Part shown: in pieces, positions 1-32,093 of the stretch | Numbering within the stretch: the first letter of the stretch is position 1 | How the letters are laid out: each line of letters opens with the position of its first letter | From: Rhodospirillaceae bacterium | GTDB lineage: Bacteria; Pseudomonadota; Alphaproteobacteria; GCA-2731375 | DNA length: 34,292 nucleotides | Assembly: GCA_002731375.1 (NCBI GenBank) | Contig: PCBT01000092.1 | Location: 1,319-35,610 of the forward strand | Reading direction: 5' to 3' | Notes under the pieces: generated by a model | Databases searched by the model: none | Told to the model about the DNA's origin: nothing | What the model saw: only the letters and a program-made list of their open reading frames with translations | Made by a program: the position numbers and the translations under genes

Positions 1-82
1 GGTTAGTGGATGTAAACAATTTGTCTTGGCGCCGGTTGCTTAATCATGGGTGGAACCCCCGGTGCTAATCATAGGGAGCAAT

Positions 83-952
83 ATGAGCGGGATGCGATAC
101 CAAGCCCCTGGCTCGGTCGATGAAGCGGTAGCGCTTTTGGCCGACGCAAACGGAGCCGCGCGCGTACTAGCGGGCGGGACCGATCTTTTAGTGCAACTTC
201 GTCTCGGCATGATCAGCCCGGATGTGGTCGTGGATATTAAAAAAATCACCGAGACGCAGGGCATCACCTCGGACGGTGACGGCTTTTGCATTGGTGCCTG
301 CGTGCCTGGCGCGGAATTGGGCGAAAACGCCGAATTGAAAGCGGCGTACCCAGGCGTGGTCGAAGGGGCCGAGCTGATCGGCTCGACGCAAGTACAGGGC
401 CGGGCCACCATGGCCGGCAATCTGTGTAATGCCTCGCCAGCCGCTGATAGCGTGCCTGCCTTGATCGCCGCTGGTGCCACCTGCACCGTGGCCGGTCCCG
501 ATGGGCGGCGTGAGGTCCCGGTAAGGGATGTTCCCACGGGCCCCGGACAGACTTCGTTGAGTAAGGGCGAATTCATCGTCAATATCAGGCTGCCGGCGCG
601 TCCGGCAAATTCGGGTGATGCCTACTTACGGATGATCCCTCGAACCGAGATGGATATCGCCATTGTCGGTGCCGGGGTTAACCTGGTTCTTGATGATAGC
701 GGCACCTGCACCGCGGCTACCGTTGTTTTGGGTGCTGTCGGTCCGACCACGATCACCGTGGCTGATGCCGGTACGGCGCTGGTCGGCACCAAGGTGGACG
801 ATGCCGCCCTAGCCGCCGTGGCGGCCGCGGCAAGCGCCGCCGCTACCCCGATCAGTGATAAACGCGGCACTGCCGAATACCGCACCAAAGTTGCGGGCGT
901 CATGGCCTCACGGGCCGCCGCCATCGCGGCCGAACGCGCCCAGAAAGCGTAG
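83..952 (+). CDS. FAD-binding subunit of a xanthine dehydrogenase-family molybdenum hydroxylase (CoxM-like)
   Basis: This is the medium, flavin-binding subunit of a three-part molybdenum hydroxylase. It would take electrons from the 2Fe-2S subunit and pass them to an acceptor. The 289-residue product has the usual family length. It shows the two FAD-contact segments of the family: AGGTDLL near residue 31 and MAGNLCNASPAAD near residue 110. The start at 83 is preferred because AGGGAG lies just upstream (73-78); the in-frame start at 50 only adds 11 unconserved residues. The gene ends 11 nt before the 2Fe-2S subunit gene, and the subunit order FAD, FeS, Mo is that of cox-type operons. The substrate cannot be told from this subunit. 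Confidence 0.93.
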   Translation: MSGMRYQAPGSVDEAVALLADANGAARVLAGGTDLLVQLRLGMISPDVVVDIKKITETQGITSDGDGFCIGACVPGAELGENAELKAAYPGVVEGAELIGSTQVQGRATMAGNLCNASPAADSVPALIAAGATCTVAGPDGRREVPVRDVPTGPGQTSLSKGEFIVNIRLPARPANSGDAYLRMIPRTEMDIAIVGAGVNLVLDDSGTCTAATVVLGAVGPTTITVADAGTALVGTKVDDAALAAVAAAASAAATPISDKRGTAEYRTKVAGVMASRAAAIAAERAQKA

Positions 953-963
953 GGAGCTAGATA

Positions 964-1440
964 ATGGCGAAACATCATATTACTACGACACTCAACGGCG
1001 AGGAAGCCGAGTACCTGTGCGAGCCGCAGGAGACCTTGCTTGATGTGCTGCGCGACCAGGTTGGCCTGACGGGCACCAAGGAAGGTTGTTCCTCCGGTGA
1101 CTGCGGGGCATGCTCGGTTATGTTGGACGGCCGTTTGGTCTGCTCCTGCTTGGTTCTCGGTGTCGAGGCCGAAGGCAAGACAGTCGAGACCATCGAAGGC
1201 ATGGCGGATGGCGAAGAATTACATCCCTTGCAGCAGAAATTCCTGGAGGAGGCCGCCCTGCAATGCGGTTTCTGTACCCCGGGTGTTTTGGTTGCCGCCA
1301 AGGCTTTGTTGGAAACCAACAACAACCCAACCGAGACGGAAGTGCGCTATTGGCTGGCCGGAAACCTGTGCCGCTGCACGGGCTATGATAAGATCATCCG
1401 CGCCGTCATGGATACCGCCGCTGATATGCGGGGAGCCTAA
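964..1440 (+). CDS. 2Fe-2S iron-sulfur subunit of the molybdenum hydroxylase (CoxS-like)
   Basis: Small subunit carrying two [2Fe-2S] clusters that relay electrons between the molybdenum and flavin sites. The N-terminal plant-ferredoxin-type cluster is seen as GCSSGDCGAC (Cys42, Cys47, Cys50) with a fourth ligand at Cys60 or Cys62. The C-terminal cluster is formed by CGFC (Cys101, Cys104) and CRC (Cys136, Cys138). The length of 158 residues is normal for the family. GGGAG at about 953-957 serves as ribosome binding site. The next gene starts 3 nt after the stop, so translational coupling with the large subunit is likely. Confidence 0.95.
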   Translation: MAKHHITTTLNGEEAEYLCEPQETLLDVLRDQVGLTGTKEGCSSGDCGACSVMLDGRLVCSCLVLGVEAEGKTVETIEGMADGEELHPLQQKFLEEAALQCGFCTPGVLVAAKALLETNNNPTETEVRYWLAGNLCRCTGYDKIIRAVMDTAADMRGA

Positions 1441-1443
1441 GGC

Positions 1444-3708
1444 ATGAATGAACAAGCGAAACAGTTCAAATGGGTGGGTACCCGTACCATCCGCCCCGAT
1501 GGGGTGGAAAAGGTAACGGGCCGGGCCAAGTTCGGCGCCGACTTGGTGCTGCCCGGCATGCTGGAAGGAAAGGTTGTCCGCAGCCCCCATGCCCATGCCC
1601 GCATCAAATCCATCGACACCTCGAAGGCCGAGGCGCTGACTGGTGTCAAGGCGGTGATTACCGGTGCTGATATGCCAGAGGCCGAGTCCAAATTGGTTGC
1701 CGCCGGTGAGGCGATGATTGATTTTCGTGATCTTGCTGCCAATGTCATTGCCAAGGATAAGGTCTTTTACGATGGTCATCCTGTTGCCGCGGTTGCTGCC
1801 GTCACCAATGACATCGCGGTGAATGCTGCCGCGATGATCGAGGTCGAGTACGAGGTGCTGCCGCACGTCATTGATGTCCGGGAAGCGATGAAGGATGATG
1901 CGCCTGTGCTGCACGATAATATCTTCACTGCTGGCGTCAAGCCGAAGCCGGAGAAGCCTTCGAACATCGCCAGCCGGGTTGAATTCGGCATAGGTGACGC
2001 GGATGCGGGTTTTGCCGGTACCGACGTGGTGATCGAACGCGAATTTACCACCCAGGCCGTGCATCAGGGCTATATCGAACCGCACGCCGCTGTGGCCGAT
2101 GCCGGCCAGGATGGCAAGGTGGAATTGTGGACCTCCAGCCAGGGCCATTTCATGGTGCGTGGTTTTTGCGCCAATCTGCTGCAGTTCGATATGTCTAAGA
2201 TCAGAGTGACGGCAGCCGAAATCGGCGGTGGCTTTGGTGGCAAGACAACGGTCTATTTGGAGCCTCTGGCGATCATGCTGTCGCGCAAGGCGGGCCGTCC
2301 CGTGCGTATGTCCATGTCGCGCCAGGACGTCTTCCGTGCCTCGGGCCCAACCTCGGGGGCGGCTATGACGGTCAAGATCGGCGCTACCAAGGACGGTAAT
2401 ATCGTTGCCGCCGATGCGACGCTCTGCTTCCAGGCGGGTGCCTTTCCGGGCTCTCCCGTGGGACCGGGCTGCATGACGGCCTTTACGCCCTATGAAATTG
2501 AGAATGTCCGCATTGTCGGTTTCGACGTAGTCTCGAACCGGCCAAAAGTCGTGGCTTATCGTGCTCCCGGCGCGCCAATTTCGGAATATGCGGTTGAATC
2601 CGTGGTTGACGAGTTGGCGGGCGAGTTGGGTATGGATCCCATCGAACTCCGGCAAAAAAACGCCGCCAAAGAAGGCACAAAGGCGGCCTATGGCGTGACT
2701 TTTGGCGCCATCGGGATGGAAGAATGCCTGGATGCGGCCAAGGCGACGGCGCATTACAAGATTCCGTTGGGGCCAAATCAAGGACGCGGCATCGCCTCGG
2801 GCTTCTGGTTCAATATCGGTGCTGAATCCTGTGCCGGTATCCGGATCAATGAAGACGGCACCATCGGCCTGACCGAAGGCAGTGTCGATATCGGCGGCTC
2901 CCGCGCTTCCATGGCGATCATGGCGGCGGAGACACTGGGCACCGATGTGGAGAAGGTGAGGCCAAGCGTGGTCGATACCGATGCCACCGGCTATCACTTC
3001 GTAACGGGCGGCAGCCGAACGACGTTTGCCACCGGTATCGCGGTGGTGGATGCGACCAAGGCGGTCATTGACGAGATGCGGGCCCGCGTCGCCCAGGTCT
3101 GGGAGGTGGATGTGGATGGCGTGATCTGGGAAGACGGCTATGCCAAGCCGGCATCCTCGAATGTCGGTGAATTCGAACCAATGTCCATCGCCGATATTGC
3201 TGCTATCGCCAACAAGACCGGTGGTCCCATCTCGGGTCATGCCGACGTCAACGCCAAGAATGCCGGTCCTGCCTTCGGCACCCACATCTGTGATGTGGAA
3301 GTCGATCCGGATACGGGCCATGTCACGGTGTTGCGCTATACGGCGGTGCAGGACGTGGGCCGGGCCATACATCCGGGCTATGTGGAAGGTCAATTGCAGG
3401 GCGGCGCGGCCCAGGGCATCGGGTGGGCTCTGAATGAAGAGTACATCTATGATGACAACGGCAATTTGGACAATGCGGGTTTCCTGGATTACCGCATTCC
3501 CGTGGCTTCCGACCTACCCATGATTGATGCGGTGATCATTGAAGTGCCGAACCCGACGCATCCCTATGGCGTGCGTGGCGTGGGTGAGGTGCCTATTATT
3601 CCGCCATTGGCAGCGGTCTCCAACGCGGTCGCAGCCGCGACGGGTGTCCGTTACAACCAACTGCCCCTCTCGCCACCGACCATCCTGGCCGGTTTGGAGA
3701 AGGGCTAG
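1444..3708 (+). CDS. Molybdopterin-binding catalytic subunit, xanthine dehydrogenase/CoxL family, substrate unknown
   Basis: Large catalytic subunit, 754 residues. GGGFGGK at 261-267 fits the molybdopterin-contact segment. The catalytic-base glutamate of molybdenum hydroxylases fits Glu715 in GVGEVP near the C terminus. The active-site loop reads AYRAPGAP (371-378). This is neither the AYxCSFR loop of form I CO dehydrogenase nor the AYRGAGR loop of form II proteins. An annotation as CO dehydrogenase is therefore not supported; an aldehyde, N-heterocycle or aromatic hydroxylase is more likely. GGGGAG upstream and 3 nt spacing from the small-subunit gene mark it as the third gene of the operon. 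The frame is intact over 2.26 kb. Confidence 0.93.
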   Translation: MNEQAKQFKWVGTRTIRPDGVEKVTGRAKFGADLVLPGMLEGKVVRSPHAHARIKSIDTSKAEALTGVKAVITGADMPEAESKLVAAGEAMIDFRDLAANVIAKDKVFYDGHPVAAVAAVTNDIAVNAAAMIEVEYEVLPHVIDVREAMKDDAPVLHDNIFTAGVKPKPEKPSNIASRVEFGIGDADAGFAGTDVVIEREFTTQAVHQGYIEPHAAVADAGQDGKVELWTSSQGHFMVRGFCANLLQFDMSKIRVTAAEIGGGFGGKTTVYLEPLAIMLSRKAGRPVRMSMSRQDVFRASGPTSGAAMTVKIGATKDGNIVAADATLCFQAGAFPGSPVGPGCMTAFTPYEIENVRIVGFDVVSNRPKVVAYRAPGAPISEYAVESVVDELAGELGMDPIELRQKNAAKEGTKAAYGVTFGAIGMEECLDAAKATAHYKIPLGPNQGRGIASGFWFNIGAESCAGIRINEDGTIGLTEGSVDIGGSRASMAIMAAETLGTDVEKVRPSVVDTDATGYHFVTGGSRTTFATGIAVVDATKAVIDEMRARVAQVWEVDVDGVIWEDGYAKPASSNVGEFEPMSIADIAAIANKTGGPISGHADVNAKNAGPAFGTHICDVEVDPDTGHVTVLRYTAVQDVGRAIHPGYVEGQLQGGAAQGIGWALNEEYIYDDNGNLDNAGFLDYRIPVASDLPMIDAVIIEVPNPTHPYGVRGVGEVPIIPPLAAVSNAVAAATGVRYNQLPLSPPTILAGLEKG

Positions 3709-3747
3709 CGCAGGGAACCCGAGAACCGGAAACGCCAGGGTCTCGGT

Positions 3748-4029
3748 ATGGCGAAGGTTAAGGTTACGCTAACCACGGGGACTGCCCTGCAGTTCACCGA
3801 CGGCGCGACCGAAGTCCATGTCGAGGCCCGCAACGCCGATCAAATGGTCAAGGCGTTGGAGGCGCGGTTTCCAGGCCTTGGCACCGCGATTGAGCAGACC
3901 ATGTCCATCGCCATAGATGGCGTGATCCTGCCTGATGCGTTCTTGGAAAAGGTTGACGAGGATAGCGAGATCTCCATCCTGCCTAAAATTGGCGGGGGTA
4001 AAAAGATTTCGAATTCGAAGACCTATTAG
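3748..4029 (+). CDS. MoaD/ThiS-family ubiquitin-like protein with its di-glycine not at the C terminus
   Basis: A 93-residue beta-grasp protein in the style of sulfur carriers MoaD and ThiS, 39 nt behind the molybdenum-subunit gene. Linkage to molybdopterin supply or sulfuration of the hydroxylase is inferred from this position. In the family the chain ends in Gly-Gly, which is adenylated and thiocarboxylated. Here the conserved tail SILPKIGGG (residues 76-84) is followed by nine extra residues, so the terminal carboxylate is not available as encoded. A G5 run (3994-3998) directly precedes an out-of-frame TAA (3999-4001). One extra G would end the protein at Gly-Gly-Gly. It may be frameshifted, processed, or functionally different from MoaD. 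Confidence 0.75.
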   Translation: MAKVKVTLTTGTALQFTDGATEVHVEARNADQMVKALEARFPGLGTAIEQTMSIAIDGVILPDAFLEKVDEDSEISILPKIGGGKKISNSKTY

Positions 4030-23315: not shown

Positions 23316-23780
23316 ATGACGTCACAGGCAAAGCCGCGGGGCATGTATTTCGAGGATTTTGAGATCGGCATGGAATTGGTCACGCCGCGCCGGACCATTA
23401 CCCTGACCGATATTGTTAATTTCGCTTCGCTTTCAGGAGATTTCAACGCGCCCCATTGCGATCATGAATTCTGTAAGACCCAGCCCTATGGCGAACCCAT
23501 TGCCCATGGCCCCTTGGTCTGGGCCGTAGCGGGTGGGCTCAGCTATGCCTCCGGCATCAATGACGGCACCATCGTTGCCATGCTGGGAGTGGACGCCTGG
23601 CGCATCCATCTACCGGTCAAACATGGCGACACCATCCATGTGGTGCAGCGTGTAGAGTCCAAACGAGAGACCTCCAAGCCTGACAAGGGTATTGTCGAGT
23701 TCGACCGCGAGATCCGTAATCAACGGGATGAAGTGGTGCAATCCGCCAAGGGCACCAATATGTATCTTCGGCGGACCTAA
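23316..23780 (+). CDS. MaoC-family (R)-specific enoyl-CoA hydratase-like protein
   Basis: Single hot-dog-fold dehydratase of 154 residues. It would hydrate an enoyl-CoA or dehydrate a hydroxyacyl-CoA. The segment GDFNAPHCDHEFCK (about 42-55) contains the Asp and His pair typical of the hydratase 2 motif. AHGPLVWAVAGGL (about 64-76) forms the substrate tunnel helix. The start at 23316 has GGAGG at 23301-23305. The stop TAA (23778-23780) overlaps the stop of the convergent CaiB-like gene by 2 bases. Together with the neighbouring CoA-transferase and acyl-CoA dehydrogenases it suggests degradation of an organic acid through CoA thioesters. Confidence 0.9.
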   Translation: MTSQAKPRGMYFEDFEIGMELVTPRRTITLTDIVNFASLSGDFNAPHCDHEFCKTQPYGEPIAHGPLVWAVAGGLSYASGINDGTIVAMLGVDAWRIHLPVKHGDTIHVVQRVESKRETSKPDKGIVEFDREIRNQRDEVVQSAKGTNMYLRRT

Positions 23781-24982
23781 ATCACGCCGTTGGTTCGAAA
23801 GGCTACGATTTCATCGACGTCGTAGCCTGCTTCGCCCAAGATTTCCTCGGCATCGGCGCCAGGTGCCACGGGCGCGCGGTCAATGGAAGCGCCGCCATGG
23901 GCCAGACGAAAACCATTGGCCACCAGTTTCAGGGAGCCAAAGGGGCTTTCGACCGTTTGCAACACGTCCCGGTGTTCCAACTGCGGATGGTTGATGGCCT
24001 CCTTGAGATTGCGCACTTGGGAGGCAGGCGCGCCGGCCTCCGCCAGACGGGCCTCCCAGGTAGCGATATCGTCAGAGGCAAAGGCGGTCTCGATAATCTC
24101 CCGCAAGGCCGGTTCATGCTCGGTCCGGCCATGCCAGTCGGCGAAGCGTGGATCATCCAACAGTTCGGGCTGGCCGATCGCGCCCATCAAGGCTTGAAAC
24201 TGCTTCTCGGTATTTACCGCGAGGAGCAGATTATCGTCGCCTACCTTGAATAGATTGGCGGTGGGGCGGCGGCTGATGGCCTGGTTGCCATATTGGCCAT
24301 GGACGTGGCCGGTGGTGGTGTGCTCGCTGATCAAGGGAGAGAGAAACGCCAGAGTGGAATCCAGCATGGCCACGTCGATGCACTGTCCCTTGCCTGTATG
24401 GGTACGCTGAAACAGGGCGGAGGCAACGGCGAAGGCGGAGGTCATGCCCCCGATGGCATCGCAGACCGCGAACCCAGCGCGCGTCGGGCCAGTGCCTTCA
24501 TGCCCCGTAATGGACATGATGCCTGAGACCGCCTGGATACGGCCGTCATATGACGGCGTATTCCGCTCCGGTCCGTTCTGGCCGAAGCCGGAAACAGCGC
24601 AATAAATCAGCTGTGGATTAATGGCCGATAGCGCTTCATAACCGATGCCGAGGCGCTCCATCACGCCAGGCCGGAAGTTCTCCGTCACCACGTCGGCGTT
24701 CTTAACCAGACGCTTGACGATTTCCAGTGCTTTTGGGTCTTTCAGATCAAGGGCAATGTTCCGCTTGTTGGCATTAATCGCTAGCCAGCCTGGCGCCATG
24801 CCCCGGTCGCTCCATTCCCTGGACAAGGGCCCATTGCGCATTTCCTCGCCGCCGGGCCGTTCCACCTTGATCACGTCGGCGCCCAGGACAGCCAGTTGGT
24901 AACTGCCGAAAGGTCCGGCGAAGACCTGGGTGAAGTCGAGGACGCGGACGCCCTCGAACGGTTTCGCGGATGCTTCACTCAT
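23777..24982 (-). CDS. CaiB/BaiF family CoA-transferase (class III)
   Basis: Class III CoA-transferase of 401 residues. It moves CoA between an acyl-CoA donor and a carboxylic acid by way of an aspartyl-CoA thioester. The N-terminal segment VRVLDFTQVFAGPFGSYQLA (12-31) is strongly typical, as are VIKVERPGGEEMR, NKRNIALDLK and VTENFRPGVMERLGIGYE. The catalytic Asp is probably that in SYDGRIQAVSG (about 168). The start at 24982 follows GGAG in the end of the upstream gene; an in-frame extension to 25138 lies within that gene and is not conserved. It begins 8 nt after the stop of the probable selenoprotein gene, so the two form an operon. The substrate is unknown. Confidence 0.92.
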   Translation of the reverse strand: MSEASAKPFEGVRVLDFTQVFAGPFGSYQLAVLGADVIKVERPGGEEMRNGPLSREWSDRGMAPGWLAINANKRNIALDLKDPKALEIVKRLVKNADVVTENFRPGVMERLGIGYEALSAINPQLIYCAVSGFGQNGPERNTPSYDGRIQAVSGIMSITGHEGTGPTRAGFAVCDAIGGMTSAFAVASALFQRTHTGKGQCIDVAMLDSTLAFLSPLISEHTTTGHVHGQYGNQAISRRPTANLFKVGDDNLLLAVNTEKQFQALMGAIGQPELLDDPRFADWHGRTEHEPALREIIETAFASDDIATWEARLAEAGAPASQVRNLKEAINHPQLEHRDVLQTVESPFGSLKLVANGFRLAHGGASIDRAPVAPGADAEEILGEAGYDVDEIVAFRTNGVI

Positions 24983-24990
24983 AATGATAC

Positions 24991-25962
24991 TTACTCCGCC
25001 GCATCGGGCTGTTTGGTCTTTAATCCTGCGGCTTCCCGTCGGCCCTTGGCGATTTCCTTGACCACATCGTTTTGCGCTCGCTGGCGGGCAATTTCCTCTG
25101 GTGGGATACGTTCGATATTGCGGAAATTGAGCTTCCATTCCGCATCGTCATTCCAACGCTGTGGTGATTGCAGAGTGGTGCGGGGACCTGTAGCGCTTTC
25201 CAGCAGATCCAGGGCCATGGCCATGGTTTCCGCCTGCGATTGCGGATCATCGGGTTTGCCGCCTGCATTGCCCAAGGGGAAGTCGCTGAACAGAAAACGC
25301 GGCACGCCGCAGAGTTCAACTATGTCCTTGGCACACCCCATGATGACGGTGGGGATGCCGTTTGCTTCGAGATAACATGCTGTCAGACTCACGGTCTGAT
25401 GGCACACTGGTCAAGCCGCAACAATGACCGCCGCTTCAACTCCGTCTTCCCTCAGACGTCTAAGTACTTCCGGGCAATCCTGCTCTATCGTGGTGACTTG
25501 GCTGCGGTTGGTCGGCGTGCCCTGGAAATGTTCAGCTAGGGCGCCGATCCGGCCCTGGTTGGCGGCCTTTTTCAACTGCGCCAGGGGGAAATAGGTGTTG
25601 ATGTCGGCGGCGGTTGTATAGGTCCGGTCATAGCCGAGATGAGAGATGCGCACATCCGGCTCATCAGCGACCTCGCCGGTATAGACCTGATAAAACTTAG
25701 CCGAGGCGTTATAGGCCGCACCTGGGCCCTGATCGCCCCGGTCGGGCTGATAGGGGGCCGAGGTAACCACCAAACCTACCTTGGTTTTCCACAATGGTTT
25801 CTCCAGGGGCGTGAATGGCACGGCCGTGTACTGTGCCCAGCGGTAGGGGTTGCCATAGCCCAAGGCTAGGTAATAGTCCTTCAATCGTTGCATATAGGGC
25901 ACCGGAATATCATGCGCTGCGGCAAAGCCCAGGACGTCATCTTCTTTTGTTCGTTCTGCCAT
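24991..25962 (-). CDS. Glycine/sarcosine/betaine/D-proline reductase B-like protein, probable selenoprotein (Sec184)
   Basis: Reductase-family protein (GrdB/PrdB-like) of 323 residues if TGA 25411-25413 is read as selenocysteine. Codons before the TGA give EAAVIVAA; those after give PVCHQTVSL and EANGIPTVIMG. These are the two sides of the family's active-site selenocysteine, here as Sec184-Pro-Val-Cys187, a UxxC redox pair. Both flanks are in the same frame with no other lesion, and a hairpin directly follows the TGA. In clostridia the family acts in glycine or proline reductases. Here the neighbours are CoA-transferase, MaoC and acyl-CoA dehydrogenase genes, so the role is unknown. AGGA upstream of ATG 25962 is a good ribosome binding site. 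Without Sec insertion a 183-residue fragment results. The alternative is a nonsense mutation of a Cys form. Confidence 0.82.
25374..25408 (-). promoter_or_regulatory. Candidate bacterial SECIS hairpin just after the in-frame TGA
   Basis: Read on the minus strand after TGA 25411-25413, UCAGAC and GUCUGA form a perfect 6-bp upper stem (25399-25383) closing the 5-nt loop CGUGA. Below a 2x2 internal loop, a 7-bp lower stem with three G-U pairs extends from 25408 to 25374. The loop starts 18 nt after the TGA and has G as its second base. This agrees with the known bacterial rule of a small apical loop with an early G, about 16-37 nt past the UGA. No folding energy was calculated. Confidence 0.7.
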
Positions 25963-26126: not shown

Positions 26127-27335
26127 ATGATCCCAGAATTTTCTGACCGCTCGAAGGATTTGCAGGAGCGGCTGCTGAAATTCATGGACGATACGGTCTA
26201 CCCGAACGAGGACCTTTACCAGGAGCAGCTTAATCAGAACGCTGACCGCTGGAACGTTCCGCCGATTTTGGAGGAAATGAAGGCCAAGGCCCGCGAAAAG
26301 GGCCTTTGGAATCTCTTTCTGCCGGAGAGTGAAGAGGTGGAGCCGATGTCTAACCTCAACTATTCACCTCTGTGCGAGATCATGGGCCGGTCGCCCATCG
26401 CGGCTGAATCCACCAATTGCTCTGCGCCAGACACCGGCAATATGGAAGTGTTCACCAGGTACGCCAATGCCGAGCTTAAGGAACGCTGGCTGACACCGTT
26501 GCTGGATGGCAAGATCCGCTCCGCCTTCGCAATGACGGAACCCGCCGTGGCTTCCTCCGATGCTACGAACATTGAAACCGCCATCGTGCGTGAGGGTGAT
26601 GAATATGTCATCAATGGCCGCAAATGGTGGACATCCGGTATTGGCGATCCCCGTTGCGAGGTTCTGATCCTGATGGGTAAGACGGATCCGGATAATGCCG
26701 ACCGTTACCGCCAGCAATCGATGATCGTCGTGCCTCGCAATACGCCGGGTATCACGGTGGAGAAAATGCTGCACGTCTTCGGTTATGACGATGCGCCCCA
26801 TGGCCATGGCCAAGTGTTGTTCGAAAACGTCCGCGTGCCCGCCGACCATATTTTGTTGGGCGAGGGGCGCGGTTTCGAGATTGCCCAGGGCCGCCTTGGG
26901 CCTGGACGGATCCATCACTGCATGCGCCAGATCGGCGTCGCCGAGCGCGCCTTGGAGAATATGTGTAAGCGGGCCAAATCCCGCTTTGCCTTTGGCAAAC
27001 TGGTCTCCGAGCAATCGGTGACCTCCGAGCGCATCGCGGAAGCTCGCATCGCCATCGATCAGGCCCGTTTGCTGGTGCTGTACGCGGCCCACAAGATGGA
27101 CACGGTTGGCAATAAGGAAGCCCGCAAGGAAATCGCCATGATCAAGGTGGCGGTGCCGAACATGACCTGCCGCGTGGTCGACATGGCCATGCAGGTGCAT
27201 GGCGGCGGCGGCGTCAGCCAAGTCTTCAATCTGGCCCATGCCTACGCCCACTCGCGCACCCTGCGCTTTGCCGATGGTCCCGATGAGGTGCATCGCGCAC
27301 AGATCGGCCGTTTGGAAATGCGCCGCTGGAACTAG
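26127..27335 (+). CDS. Acyl-CoA dehydrogenase family protein (ACAD10/11-like)
   Basis: Flavoprotein of 402 residues that would introduce an alpha,beta double bond into an acyl-CoA and feed electrons to ETF. Visible are [15 protein letters not shown] (about 138-152) and NGRKWWTSG (about 167-175), which contact FAD and substrate. Further on are [11 protein letters not shown] (about 256-266) and the C-terminal [11 protein letters not shown] with FADGPDEVH. In ACAD10/11-type enzymes the aspartate of ADGP (Asp383 here) stands where the catalytic Glu is in medium-chain enzymes. GGTAAGAG precedes the start. It is divergent from the selenoprotein gene, with 164 bp between them. It closely resembles the partial gene at 33289. 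Confidence 0.92.
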
Positions 27336-27420: not shown

Positions 27421-28503
27421 ATGGCAATCGACGATTGGTTTTCCGCCAGCTATGGCGAGGCACGGGCAAAATTTCTGGCGGCGGCCAAGACCGCCGGAGC
27501 GGTCCAGACAAGCTATGCGCATCCTTTACAAGGTCCCGATGGCGATGATCTGGCCATGGATTTGGCCTACCTGGGCCCGGCCGACGCAGCCAAGGTGCTG
27601 GTGACTTCATCGGGCACCCATGGTGTCGAAGGCTTTTGCGGCTCGGGCTGCCAAATCGGTTTCCTGCAAGATGGCCTGCACACTGAATTACCTGACGATA
27701 TGGCGCTTTTGCACGTGCATGCCCATAACCCCCATGGCTTCGTTCACGAACGGCGGGTGACCGAAGACAACGTCGATTTGAACCGCAATTTCATTGATTT
27801 CGAAGCGCCACTGCCGGAAAACCCAGCCTATGACGAAGTCCACCCCTGGCTGGTGCCTAGTGATTGGGATGGCCCGGCCCACCAGGCAGCCGACGCGGCG
27901 ATCAAGGCATATATCGCCGAACATGGCATGTTAGCCTACCAGGCAGCGGTTAGTGGTGGCCAGTACGACCATCCCGACGGCCTGTTCTATGGCGGGCAGG
28001 CGGCAACCTGGTCGCGGTGCACTATTGAAACCTTGGCCCAAGAACATTTGATCGGACGCAGCCATGTGGCGCTGATCGATTTCCATACTGGCCTGGGGCC
28101 TAGAGGTTACGGCGAACTGATCTCGGTCGATGTGCCCGGTGGGGCCGAACATCTGCGCGCCGTGGCCTGGTACGGTGACGAAGTTCGTACACCGGGCTCC
28201 GGCGATAGTGTTTCGGCCAAGGTCAACGGCACCATCGAGAGCGGCTACCATGCCTTATTGCAAAATGCCGAAAGCACCACCATCGCCATTGAATTCGGTA
28301 CCTTGCCTCCCGAACAGGTTCTGGGCGCCTTGCAAGCTGATAACTGGCTGTATCTGCACGGCGATGTGGCCTCCGCCAAGGGTCGGGACATCAAACGGCA
28401 AATGCGGACCGCGTTCTACGGCGAGGACAGCGAATGGAAGGCCATGATCTGGCAGCGGGGTCTGGAAATCGCACGTAAGACTATCCAGGGCCTGAAGGGA
28501 TAG
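27421..28503 (+). CDS. DUF2817 family protein, M14-like zinc carboxypeptidase/deacylase fold, copy 1
   Basis: 360-residue protein of the DUF2817 family, related to M14 zinc carboxypeptidases and aspartoacylase-type deacylases. The likely zinc ligands are His and Glu in GTHGVEGF (about 63-70) and the His in IDFHTGLGP (about 220-228). DLNRNFIDF (about 119-127) matches the M14 substrate-binding Asn-Arg, and EFGTLPPEQ (about 291) may bear the general-base Glu. No signal peptide is seen, so it should act in the cytoplasm. The start at 27421 follows GAGGTTGAGAAG; longer versions run back through the terminator and are rejected. A second copy follows after 6 nt. The true substrate of the family is unknown. 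Confidence 0.85.
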   Translation: MAIDDWFSASYGEARAKFLAAAKTAGAVQTSYAHPLQGPDGDDLAMDLAYLGPADAAKVLVTSSGTHGVEGFCGSGCQIGFLQDGLHTELPDDMALLHVHAHNPHGFVHERRVTEDNVDLNRNFIDFEAPLPENPAYDEVHPWLVPSDWDGPAHQAADAAIKAYIAEHGMLAYQAAVSGGQYDHPDGLFYGGQAATWSRCTIETLAQEHLIGRSHVALIDFHTGLGPRGYGELISVDVPGGAEHLRAVAWYGDEVRTPGSGDSVSAKVNGTIESGYHALLQNAESTTIAIEFGTLPPEQVLGALQADNWLYLHGDVASAKGRDIKRQMRTAFYGEDSEWKAMIWQRGLEIARKTIQGLKG

Positions 28504-28509
28504 CTGAAC

Positions 28510-29568
28510 ATGGCTAGCGACAGTCATTTCCGACCGGATTATGCCGCCTGCCGGGAGCATTTTCTAAATTTGTCGAATGTTTTGGGCGGCGAATTGATGC
28601 GCGCGATCAATCCTGCCTCTGGCCCTGACGGGTTGGAATTGAGCACGGATTTTCTGCGTCTTGGTCCGACGGATGCCGAACGCGCCCTAATCCTGGTTTC
28701 GGGCACCCACGGGGCGGAAGGTTTCGCGGGCTCGGCCATCCAGTGCGCCTGGCTGGCGGCTCATGGTGGACAACTGCCTGATAATCTTGCCGTGGTCATG
28801 GTGCATGGCCTGAATGCTTTCGGCTTCGCGCATTTGCGCCGGGTCAACGAAAACAATGTGGACTTAAACCGAAATTTCATCGATCACGAGGCCGACCATC
28901 CCCATAACGACGGTTACGCCAAGGTGGCCCATTTCCTAGCGGTCAATAGGTTGGATGGCCCGGAACGGGAGGCCGCCGATAAGGAATTGCTGCGCCTTGG
29001 TGTGGAAATGGGCCATATGAACATCATGCGCGCCATTGGCGGACAGTACGATGATGCCGAAGGCATGTTCTATGGTGGCCGGGTGCCGTCGTGGTCGAAC
29101 CGGGCTCTGCGGGAATATCTGCCTAAGATGTTGCCGAATGTGAAGTTGGCGGCATACGTCGACATTCACACCGGCTTGGGGCCATCGGGATACGGGAGCC
29201 CCATGTGTTACCACTTGCCGAAGTCGGCTGATTACAACCTGGCCAAGGCCTGGTGGGGCGGGGATGTTACCGCCGCCGCTGCCAAGATCAACCATGGCAA
29301 GACTGGGGTTGGCGCCATGGAGGCGTTGATGGGCGCGCGAGTCATCTGCTTGACTTTGGAATTCGGCACTTTGCCTTTTGATGGCATTCTGCCGGCCTTG
29401 CAGGATGAACATGCCTGGTGGTGGCATCACCGTGACCGGGACGGCAGCACCATCAAGGCGAATTTCAAGGCGGCCTTTTGCCGTGATGACCGGGAATGGG
29501 AAAGTCAGATCATTGAACGCGGCCTGCAAATCGTGGCGACATCCATCGAGGGCTTGGTGAAGAATTAG
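28510..29568 (+). CDS. DUF2817 family protein, M14-like zinc carboxypeptidase/deacylase fold, copy 2
   Basis: 352-residue tandem paralogue of the preceding gene, 6 nt downstream and clearly in the same operon. The same motifs are kept: GTHGAEGFAGS (about 63-73), DLNRNFIDHE (about 118-127), VDIHTGLGPSGYG (about 217-229) and LEFGTLPFDG (about 285-294). Both copies keep every putative metal and substrate residue, so neither looks like a dead partner. They differ widely elsewhere, so the duplication is old. They may act on two related substrates or form a heteromer. It ends 120 bp before the convergent CoxE-like gene. Confidence 0.85.
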   Translation: MASDSHFRPDYAACREHFLNLSNVLGGELMRAINPASGPDGLELSTDFLRLGPTDAERALILVSGTHGAEGFAGSAIQCAWLAAHGGQLPDNLAVVMVHGLNAFGFAHLRRVNENNVDLNRNFIDHEADHPHNDGYAKVAHFLAVNRLDGPEREAADKELLRLGVEMGHMNIMRAIGGQYDDAEGMFYGGRVPSWSNRALREYLPKMLPNVKLAAYVDIHTGLGPSGYGSPMCYHLPKSADYNLAKAWWGGDVTAAAAKINHGKTGVGAMEALMGARVICLTLEFGTLPFDGILPALQDEHAWWWHHRDRDGSTIKANFKAAFCRDDREWESQIIERGLQIVATSIEGLVKN

Positions 29569-29688: not shown

Positions 29689-31086
29689 TCAGGCCCGGGC
29701 GTAGCTTTTCAGGATGTCATCGACCACGCGTTCCAGGTGCAATACGGTGCTGCATGTCTTGGCGACATGGCAGAACTGGCGGTAGCGGGGCATTTCGCTG
29801 TCGCCGGTGCCCCAAAACGTTTCCGGTTCTGGATTTAGCCAGATGACGGAGCGGGAGCGGTCGTGGATGCGGCGCATGATGTCGATACGCGGGTCGGTGA
29901 AGTTGGAACGGCCGTCGCCCAGAATGATCACCGTGGTTTGTCGGTCCAGATCATCCATGAAGCATTCCTCGTAATCGAGCAGGGCCTGGCCATAGTCGGT
30001 GGAGCGGAAGCCGATGGTGTTCATGATTTCCGGTATAGCCTGTTCCACATCGTTGTTTTCCAGAATGTCGCCGACGCTGACCAAGCTGTCGGAAAAGGCA
30101 TAGGCCTCCAGGTGGGCGATCACTTCATGCATGGAATAGAGGAACAGCAGCAGGAACCGCGCGGCCGCCGCGACGGATTTAGAAACATCGCAGATCACCA
30201 CGATCTTGGGCCGTTCGATCTTGATCTGCTTCCACAAAACTTCAAATGGGATGCCGTCGTGGGGCATGTTACGGCGCATGGTGCGGCGAATATCCAGTTG
30301 GCCGCGCTTGGTATGTTTGCGCCGCCGGCTATAGCGCGAGGCCAGGCGTTTCGCCATACGGCGGACGATGCGGTGCATGCGGTCGAAATCCCGGTGCTCC
30401 AGGTTCGACATGCGGGTTTCCATAAGGAATTCCTCGCGCAAGTTTTCACCGTTGGCGCGAGCGTATAATTCGTACTGCCGCTCCACATATTGCCGGGATT
30501 CTTCGAGCAGATAACGCCGGCCCTGTTCCAGGCGTTTAGCTAGGTCCCGCGCGGCGTCACCTTCGCCGTCTTCATCCCCTTCGCCGCTACGCCGTAGCGT
30601 CGCAATTAACCGCTCCAGATCGCGTAAGCCCATGTCGTCGAGGATGCGGCGTGCAAAATAACCCCGTTGAGAGAAAAATTTGATCTCCGTCGCACCGACA
30701 CGATTGGCGGATTGTTCCATGGCCGCCGCCAGCTCGCTGCCGTCGGCATCCATAACCATTTCGGCCAGGGGTACGTTGCTAAGTTGATCAGCAAAGTCGG
30801 CGTCGCTTTCCACACTTTCAGGTGCCTGGCTGCTGCCGTCCTCGTCATCGCTGTAATCGCGGTCGGCGAATTCGTCACGCTGGAAAAACATCTCGAAGCA
30901 TTCTTCGAAATTGGCGACTTCGTCGGGTGTTTTCGCCAGGGCCACGCAGAGCGCATCCTTGAACAACTGTCGGTCGCCGTAACCGACTACGTCGACCGTG
31001 CGGTGGGCATCAATGCTTTCCGCCGGCGAGACACGGATATCAGCGGCGCGCAGGGCGCGGAAGAAGTTCTCAAGTGGTCGCTGCAT
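29689..31086 (-). CDS. VWA domain-containing CoxE-like protein
   Basis: 465-residue protein of the CoxE family: an N-terminal region of unknown fold, an acidic middle (about 80-110), and a C-terminal von Willebrand factor A domain. The metal-ion-dependent adhesion site is complete: DVSKS in VICDVSKSVAAA, the threonine in STDYGQAL, and the aspartate in ILGDGRSNF. CoxE works with the MoxR-type ATPase CoxD, which in CO dehydrogenase maturation helps build the active site. The gene overlaps the upstream MoxR gene by 17 nt, so the two are made together. In this window the pair sits about 26 kb from the molybdenum hydroxylase genes and beside acyl-CoA dehydrogenases, so its client protein is unknown. 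Confidence 0.9.
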   Translation of the reverse strand: MQRPLENFFRALRAADIRVSPAESIDAHRTVDVVGYGDRQLFKDALCVALAKTPDEVANFEECFEMFFQRDEFADRDYSDDEDGSSQAPESVESDADFADQLSNVPLAEMVMDADGSELAAAMEQSANRVGATEIKFFSQRGYFARRILDDMGLRDLERLIATLRRSGEGDEDGEGDAARDLAKRLEQGRRYLLEESRQYVERQYELYARANGENLREEFLMETRMSNLEHRDFDRMHRIVRRMAKRLASRYSRRRKHTKRGQLDIRRTMRRNMPHDGIPFEVLWKQIKIERPKIVVICDVSKSVAAAARFLLLFLYSMHEVIAHLEAYAFSDSLVSVGDILENNDVEQAIPEIMNTIGFRSTDYGQALLDYEECFMDDLDRQTTVIILGDGRSNFTDPRIDIMRRIHDRSRSVIWLNPEPETFWGTGDSEMPRYRQFCHVAKTCSTVLHLERVVDDILKSYARA

Positions 31087-32038
31087 AGCCTCGGTCCCCG
31101 TCCTGACGTGCCTTCCGGGTCAATTCGGCGATCTGTGGTCGTATTGCGTCAATATCCGTTTCGAACTTCAGCAACACATTCAAGGTGTCGCGGACCATAT
31201 CGGGGGCCAGATCATCGGTATGTAGCAGCATCAGTACACGGGCCCAATCCAAGGTTTCGGAAATGGATGGCAGCTTTTTCAGGTCCTGTACCCGCAGCTG
31301 TTGCACGAATGAAACCAGTTTACGCCGCAGCGTGGCCTCGATATTCGGTACGCGAGCGGCCACGATCTGCTCTTCCAGTTTGGCGTCGGGCAGGGGGATA
31401 TATAGATGTAGGCAGCGCCGCTTCAGGGCGTCGCCCATCTCGCGCATATTGTTGGAGGTGAGGAAGACCAGAGGCGGCACGGTGGATTTAACCGTACCGA
31501 TTTCGGGGATGGTGACCTGATAGGCGGAGAGGATTTCCAATAGGAAAGCCTCGAATTCCTCGTCGGATTTATCGATTTCATCGATCAAAAGTACGGCGCC
31601 ATGTTCTTGCCGCAAGGCCTTCAACAGAGGGCGGGGTTCGAGAAATTCTTTGGAAAAGAACATATCGCCAAAACCATGCAGTTTCTGCATGGCGGCTTCC
31701 AGGCCTGGGGCATCACCCAGCACATCGCCCATTTTATCCTTTAGGATCTGGGTATAGAGCAGCTGTTTGCCGTACTTCCATTCGTACAATGCCTTGGATT
31801 CATCCAGACCCTCGTAACATTGCATACGGATCAACGGCAGGCCCAGCCAGGCCGCGGAGGCCAGGGCCAGTTCGGTCTTGCCGACGCCGGCGGAGCCTTC
31901 GACCAGGATCGGCTTGGTCAAATTCTCGGCCACGAAGATAGCGGTGGCAATTTGCCGGGAGGCGATGTAGCCCTGATCGCCAAGTCCGGCGACGATGTTT
32001 TCAACGTTGTCGAATTCGGCTGTACTTGGTTCGGTCAT
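31070..32038 (-). CDS. MoxR-family AAA+ ATPase (CoxD-like)
   Basis: AAA+ ATPase of 322 residues from the preferred start. MoxR ATPases are chaperones that, with VWA partners, mature or activate metalloenzymes. Walker A is GSAGVGKTE (about 52-60), Walker B is LLIDEID (about 151-157), and sensor 1 is in VFLTSNN (about 190-196). The start at ATG 32038 is preferred; GTG 32056 would add six residues and lacks a ribosome binding site. It overlaps the CoxE-like gene by 17 nt. CoxD-like members are involved in CO dehydrogenase assembly, but similar MoxR/VWA pairs occur in many settings. Confidence 0.9.
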   Translation of the reverse strand: MTEPSTAEFDNVENIVAGLGDQGYIASRQIATAIFVAENLTKPILVEGSAGVGKTELALASAAWLGLPLIRMQCYEGLDESKALYEWKYGKQLLYTQILKDKMGDVLGDAPGLEAAMQKLHGFGDMFFSKEFLEPRPLLKALRQEHGAVLLIDEIDKSDEEFEAFLLEILSAYQVTIPEIGTVKSTVPPLVFLTSNNMREMGDALKRRCLHLYIPLPDAKLEEQIVAARVPNIEATLRRKLVSFVQQLRVQDLKKLPSISETLDWARVLMLLHTDDLAPDMVRDTLNVLLKFETDIDAIRPQIAELTRKARQDGDRGYAATT

Positions 32039-32093
32039 GGGTCTCTTTTCAATCACTTAGTTTACAGTCTTCATTTACGGCGCGCGGTCAAAA

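Follow-up and report, generated by a model that had tools for sequence, protein, structure and literature searches.

A GrdB/PrdB-like selenoprotein gene and its probable CoA-transferase operon in an alphaproteobacterial genome

The window, meaning the whole stretch of 34,292 nucleotides that was analysed, comes from a marine Rhodospirillaceae bacterium and contains a minus-strand gene with an internal TGA, flanked by genes for a CoA-transferase, an enoyl-CoA hydratase, an acyl-CoA dehydrogenase, and two DUF2817 proteins. The features are listed below by coordinates and strand.

24991-25962, minus strand: selenoprotein gene, GrdB/PrdB-like, 323 amino acids, with start ATG at 25962-25960 and stop TAA at 24993-24991
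25411-25413, minus strand: in-frame TGA codon, assigned to Sec184, the first residue of UxxC (Cys187), from the homologue column and the alignment with annotated PrdB
25383-25399, minus strand: predicted bacterial SECIS (bSECIS) hairpin, with stem CAGAC/GTCTG, one outer U-A pair, and loop CGTGA, from comparative pairing and covariation
23777-24982, minus strand: family III (CaiB/BaiF) CoA-transferase, with its ATG at 24982, 8 nt past the TAA of the selenoprotein gene
23316-23780, plus strand: MaoC-like enoyl-CoA hydratase, convergent with the CoA-transferase and also found in the closest relative, G004
26127-27335, plus strand: acyl-CoA dehydrogenase, divergent, a neighbour conserved in the genus
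27424-28503, plus strand: first of two DUF2817 proteins, a neighbour conserved in the genus
28510-29568, plus strand: second of two DUF2817 proteins, a neighbour conserved in the genus

The start codon of the selenoprotein gene is preceded by AAAGGA. Two open frames in the same register, 25962-25411 (183 codons, ending in TGA) and 25410-24991, meet at the TGA, as the original prediction had described without giving the strand, and both were recovered on the minus strand. Reading the TGA as selenocysteine yields a product of 323 residues with the motif U184-P-V-C187-H188 (UPVCH), exactly the length, the Sec184, and the Cys at +3 that had been proposed. An annotation halting at the TGA would split a real selenoprotein into two false genes.

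The codon is retained across relatives. Among 77 homologues from the class and the phylum, the Sec184 column holds TGA in 52 and the cysteine codons TGC or TGT in 25, with no other residue, which answers the question raised by the original prediction of whether homologues carry U or C at this position. All ten other same-genus genomes examined keep this frame and carry the TGA at the corresponding codon (11 of 11 with the host); four of these ten relatives are marine alphaproteobacterial metagenome-assembled genomes (MAGs), from Rhodospirillaceae and other Alphaproteobacteria, and are 80-90% identical. The TGA is also conserved in genome G013. On the homologue tree, the Sec/Cys state switches at least seven times along well-supported branches, as expected of an exchangeable Sec/Cys site. 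Substitutions on either side of the codon are mostly synonymous, with dN/dS of 0.07-0.10 upstream of the TGA and 0.10-0.18 downstream; by these ratios, both halves of the gene are under purifying selection.

These observations bear on the reading that the TGA arose by nonsense mutation or through a sequencing error and marks a pseudogene derived from an ordinary cysteine gene. The host genome is indeed a fragmented MAG (115 contigs, 96% complete, 6.7% estimated contamination), and isolated stop errors or mutations do occur in it: the paralogue L007 (G000:C46:35841-36902, minus strand) has a second in-frame TGA at domain codon 28, where two of the three relatives compared have Trp and the third has Phe, and this extra TGA probably stems from an error or a mutation and does not encode another Sec. 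Against such an origin for codon 184, the same TGA is shared by all same-genus genomes, by eight paralogues, and by members in other alphaproteobacterial families, purifying selection persists past it, and the hairpin described below is restricted to TGA genes. The conservation of the TGA, the selection, and the distribution of the hairpin rule this reading out, leaving it a vanishingly small probability.

Bacterial SECIS elements form a hairpin just past the UGA; its apical loop lies some 16-37 nt from that codon and carries a G near its start. The predicted hairpin conforms to this rule: it begins 12 nt after the UGA, and its apical loop, CGTGA, starts at a distance of 17 nt. Of 47 unique Sec genes, 45 can form all five inner pairs, compared with none of 25 Cys genes, while in 500 synonymous-codon randomisations the number of Sec genes (of 47) with all five averaged 3.9 and never exceeded 11. 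The stem variants CAAAC/GTTTG and CGCGC/GCGCG represent changes on both sides of the stem, and 27 compensatory cells were counted, a level that none of 500 shuffles produced. Additionally, the covariation score is 0.371, compared with 0.143 in the shuffles, none of which (0/500) reached 0.371, and the pairing is lost once the partner is shifted by one to three columns. When the host gene is folded thermodynamically by itself, the region after the UGA does not exceed shuffled sequences in stability (z -0.09), so the evidence for the hairpin is comparative only.

The host genome encodes the machinery that selenocysteine insertion requires. The original prediction had proposed a search for these genes, and all of them were found: selA (580 bits) and selB (427 bits) are adjacent on contig C63, a Sec-containing, Sec-type selD (381 bits) lies on C46, and tRNA-Sec (73 bits) with anticodon TCA lies on C7. 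A second selD match in the host, at C53:73670-74587 (G000), has no TGA and lies within a 756-residue open frame; it is probably an oxidoreductase-SelD fusion, like those reported from the GOS survey.

A further reading holds that UGA is translated as Cys or Trp through a changed code or a suppressor tRNA, which would accord with the cysteine found at this column in homologues lacking the TGA. TGA is, however, an ordinary stop in 8 of the 25 window genes checked, and Trp is encoded by TGG, so there is no general reassignment of TGA; the tRNA with the TCA anticodon is tRNA-Sec, the selA/selB/selD set is complete, and a SECIS-type hairpin would be purposeless. A code change is thus ruled out by the TGA stops in the window, the homologue column, and the hairpin, and its probability is very slight. 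As judged from this sequence evidence, the gene is a genuine selenoprotein gene, whose internal TGA is predicted to be decoded as selenocysteine.

The affiliation of the protein is broader than its best-scoring name implies. Residues 43-181 match the Pfam family PF07355 (GRDB) with 38 bits against a gathering threshold of 22, and the best NCBIfam match is PrdB (TIGR04483). The TGA had been said to fall at the selenocysteine position of the family, and Sec184 does align with the Sec of three annotated clostridial and enterococcal PrdB proteins, from Terrisporobacter, Enterococcus, and Peptoclostridium, all of them TGA-encoded and sharing the UxxCH motif. Homology to PrdB extends over residues 50-258 at 25-31% identity, while the window protein differs in having N- and C-terminal extensions. 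In comparison with GrdB (PF07355, TIGR01917/01918), it covers only the C-terminal half of the models, in which the Sec region lies, and lacks the N-terminal half; full-length GrdB has about 430 residues (431-position models). The RefSeq protein WP_207415257.1 of Roseomonas haemaphysalidis is 58% identical over 90% of the protein, has a similar length, and shares PVCHQT, but it carries Cys (TGC) in place of Sec, and the Sec-type hairpin is missing. RefSeq names the Cys members "glycine/sarcosine/betaine reductase selenoprotein B family protein". No relative turned up when PDB sequences were searched with a profile. An AlphaFold2 model built from five close sequences had a pLDDT of 42, and the best hit when that model was searched against PDB folds (RuvC, E 0.018) was not significant; both results were discarded.

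The protein might accordingly be read as a true D-proline reductase PrdB, or as a B subunit of glycine, betaine, or sarcosine reductase, working in a Stickland-type pathway. PrdB is the best NCBIfam match, authentic PrdB has the same UxxCH and Sec column, and the passages of the ocean surveys on this family use the name PrdB (PMC1088965, PMC2398784). The score, however, is only 86.3 bits, below the equivalog cut-off of 300, whereas authentic PrdB scores 424.7. The neighbouring genes encode a CoA-transferase and an acyl-CoA dehydrogenase rather than PrdA, PrdC, or PrdD. No match to the pyruvoyl subunit model PF09338 (PrdA), which does recognise real PrdA proteins, was found in the host genome or among 385 genomes from the class, 51 of them with members of the selenoprotein family, although the control genomes gave no match either; GrdA (PF04723) was likewise unmatched in the host genome, as it was in the control genomes. 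With the controls matchless, absence of the pyruvoyl partner from these genomes is likely rather than proven. The assignment to D-proline or glycine reductase was rejected on the score and the missing partners, and it is highly improbable. Of the proposed GrdB/PrdB-like reductase, the relationship to the superfamily therefore stands, while identity with a glycine or D-proline reductase subunit does not, given the missed PrdB cut-off and the failure to detect a pyruvoyl partner or GrdA.

This kind of selenoprotein is already known from ocean surveys. The Sargasso Sea survey lists 42 "PrdB" sequences in its passages on the family (PMC1088965), and the corresponding passages of the GOS survey count 235 Sec and 110 Cys members (PMC2398784); in these passages, counts and motifs are drawn from metagenomic sequence, with homology as the ground for assigning proline reduction. 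The survey family (pfam07355) is described there with UxxC, Sec with Cys homologues, and a marine setting, all of which the window family shares, and no operon, partner, or per-genome paralogue count appears in the survey passages on marine PrdB (PMC1088965, PMC2398784). The window family is very probably the same family, the two being equated by description rather than by direct sequence comparison, and the window gene is an additional member of it. One of the most abundant marine selenoprotein families bears the name of a proline reductase though the partner subunit was not found.

The UGSC selenoproteins, which the GOS survey describes in its account of them as likely to have a thioredoxin-like fold (PMC2398784), show a more distant resemblance. 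In a profile comparison, Sec aligned to Sec with P = 8e-5 and an hhalign probability of 61%, compared with 0.43 for the reversed profile, and the spacing from U to the LE..GIP.V stretch is identical in the two families. Authentic PrdB independently matches the UGSC model (NF041046) with E = 9.5e-5. The window protein itself scores 14 bits against NF041046, below the cut-off of 125, and its motif is UPVC, not UGSC; UGSC proteins are shorter, have other residues around Sec, and have hairpins that differ in sequence from those of the window family. The profile evidence suggests that the UGSC selenoproteins are distant relatives, forming one superfamily with the GrdB/PrdB-like family. The host genome contains seven UGSC-family matches, each with an in-frame TGA, for example L146 (C52:4338-4757), and some members in relatives (L150, L155) are fused to a long C-terminal domain with a GWTDGLP motif.

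The selenoprotein and family III CoA-transferase genes probably share an operon. Within the genus this pair is kept, usually together with the divergent acyl-CoA dehydrogenase and the two DUF2817 genes, the second of which encodes a protein weakly resembling aspartoacylase-type amidohydrolases. Outside it, a CoA-transferase also lies downstream of the Sec-form homologue in G217, from another family, and adjoins the Cys form in several genomes of family f171. Family III CoA-transferases account for 10 of the 29 downstream genes scanned, a link that is therefore recurrent but not universal. A scan for viral contigs found none.

Seven further paralogues are present in the host genome, each with TGA at the corresponding codon. 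Their neighbours include an AMP-dependent ligase with amidohydrolases, a TPP enzyme, an acyl-CoA dehydrogenase, and a TauD-type dioxygenase, as well as another CoA-transferase accompanied by an enoyl-CoA hydratase. Since the paralogues adjoin differing catabolic genes, they may serve different substrates. A subfamily comprising L006 (G000:C89:396-1208), L078, L083, and L099 has UPLD or CPLD in place of the usual motif, with Sec or Cys kept and the second Cys replaced by Asp; the resolving Cys is thus not essential in that branch.

Taken together, the evidence makes it highly probable that the window encodes a Sec enzyme belonging to the GrdB/PrdB superfamily and produced through the usual bacterial Sec decoding, along with its CoA-transferase operon. 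Comparative genomics gives strong support to the decoding, in which SelB and Sec-tRNA-Sec read UGA 184 owing to the hairpin that starts 12 nt downstream. In the proposed mechanism, the selenoprotein would be co-transcribed with the family III CoA-transferase. Sec184 would serve as the catalytic nucleophile and Cys187 as its putative redox partner in UxxC, a partner not needed in all members, and the enzyme would subject a small organic acid to thiol-driven reductive cleavage or exchange, the CoA-transferase activating this acid or releasing it as a CoA ester. The selenoprotein probably works without the pyruvoyl subunit of the glycine and D-proline reductases, a point resting on the negative search in which the control genomes also gave no match. 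That the substrate is a CoA-activated acid is guessed from the neighbouring genes, and the CoA-linked reductive mechanism is offered tentatively, as the best guess for the reaction.

A role for Sec184 in redox chemistry or detoxification, such as reduction of peroxides, disulfides, or organometals, with the CoA-related neighbours being incidental, appears rather unlikely, although UxxC is a common redox motif, the neighbours of the paralogues are very diverse, and the CPLD/UPLD paralogues dispense with the second Cys. The pairing with a family III CoA-transferase is nevertheless kept across Sec and Cys forms and across distant alphaproteobacterial families, and ligases, hydratases, and acyl-CoA dehydrogenases recur around the paralogues. 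For the CoA-linked reading, a wider and equally speculative picture can be drawn: a large pyruvoyl-free GrdB/PrdB branch, maybe including UGSC, could have expanded in marine alphaproteobacteria until a genome encodes about 15 such selenoenzymes, every one linked to a catabolic operon of its own; the window's branch and its family III CoA-transferase would together perform an undescribed CoA-linked reductive reaction. Less expected is that numerous paralogues, the lack of a visible pyruvoyl partner, and an accompanying CoA-transferase occur in combination. A direct route to the real substrate leads through the genomes rich in paralogues, the pairing with the CoA-transferase, and the culturable relatives that carry Cys versions.

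Elsewhere in the window, a three-gene molybdenum hydroxylase operon (FAD, 2Fe-2S, and molybdenum subunits), xanthine dehydrogenase-like and followed by a ThiS/MoaD-like protein, occupies 50-4029 on the plus strand, and a pair encoding a MoxR-type AAA ATPase and a CoxE-like VWA protein lies at 29689-32056 on the minus strand.
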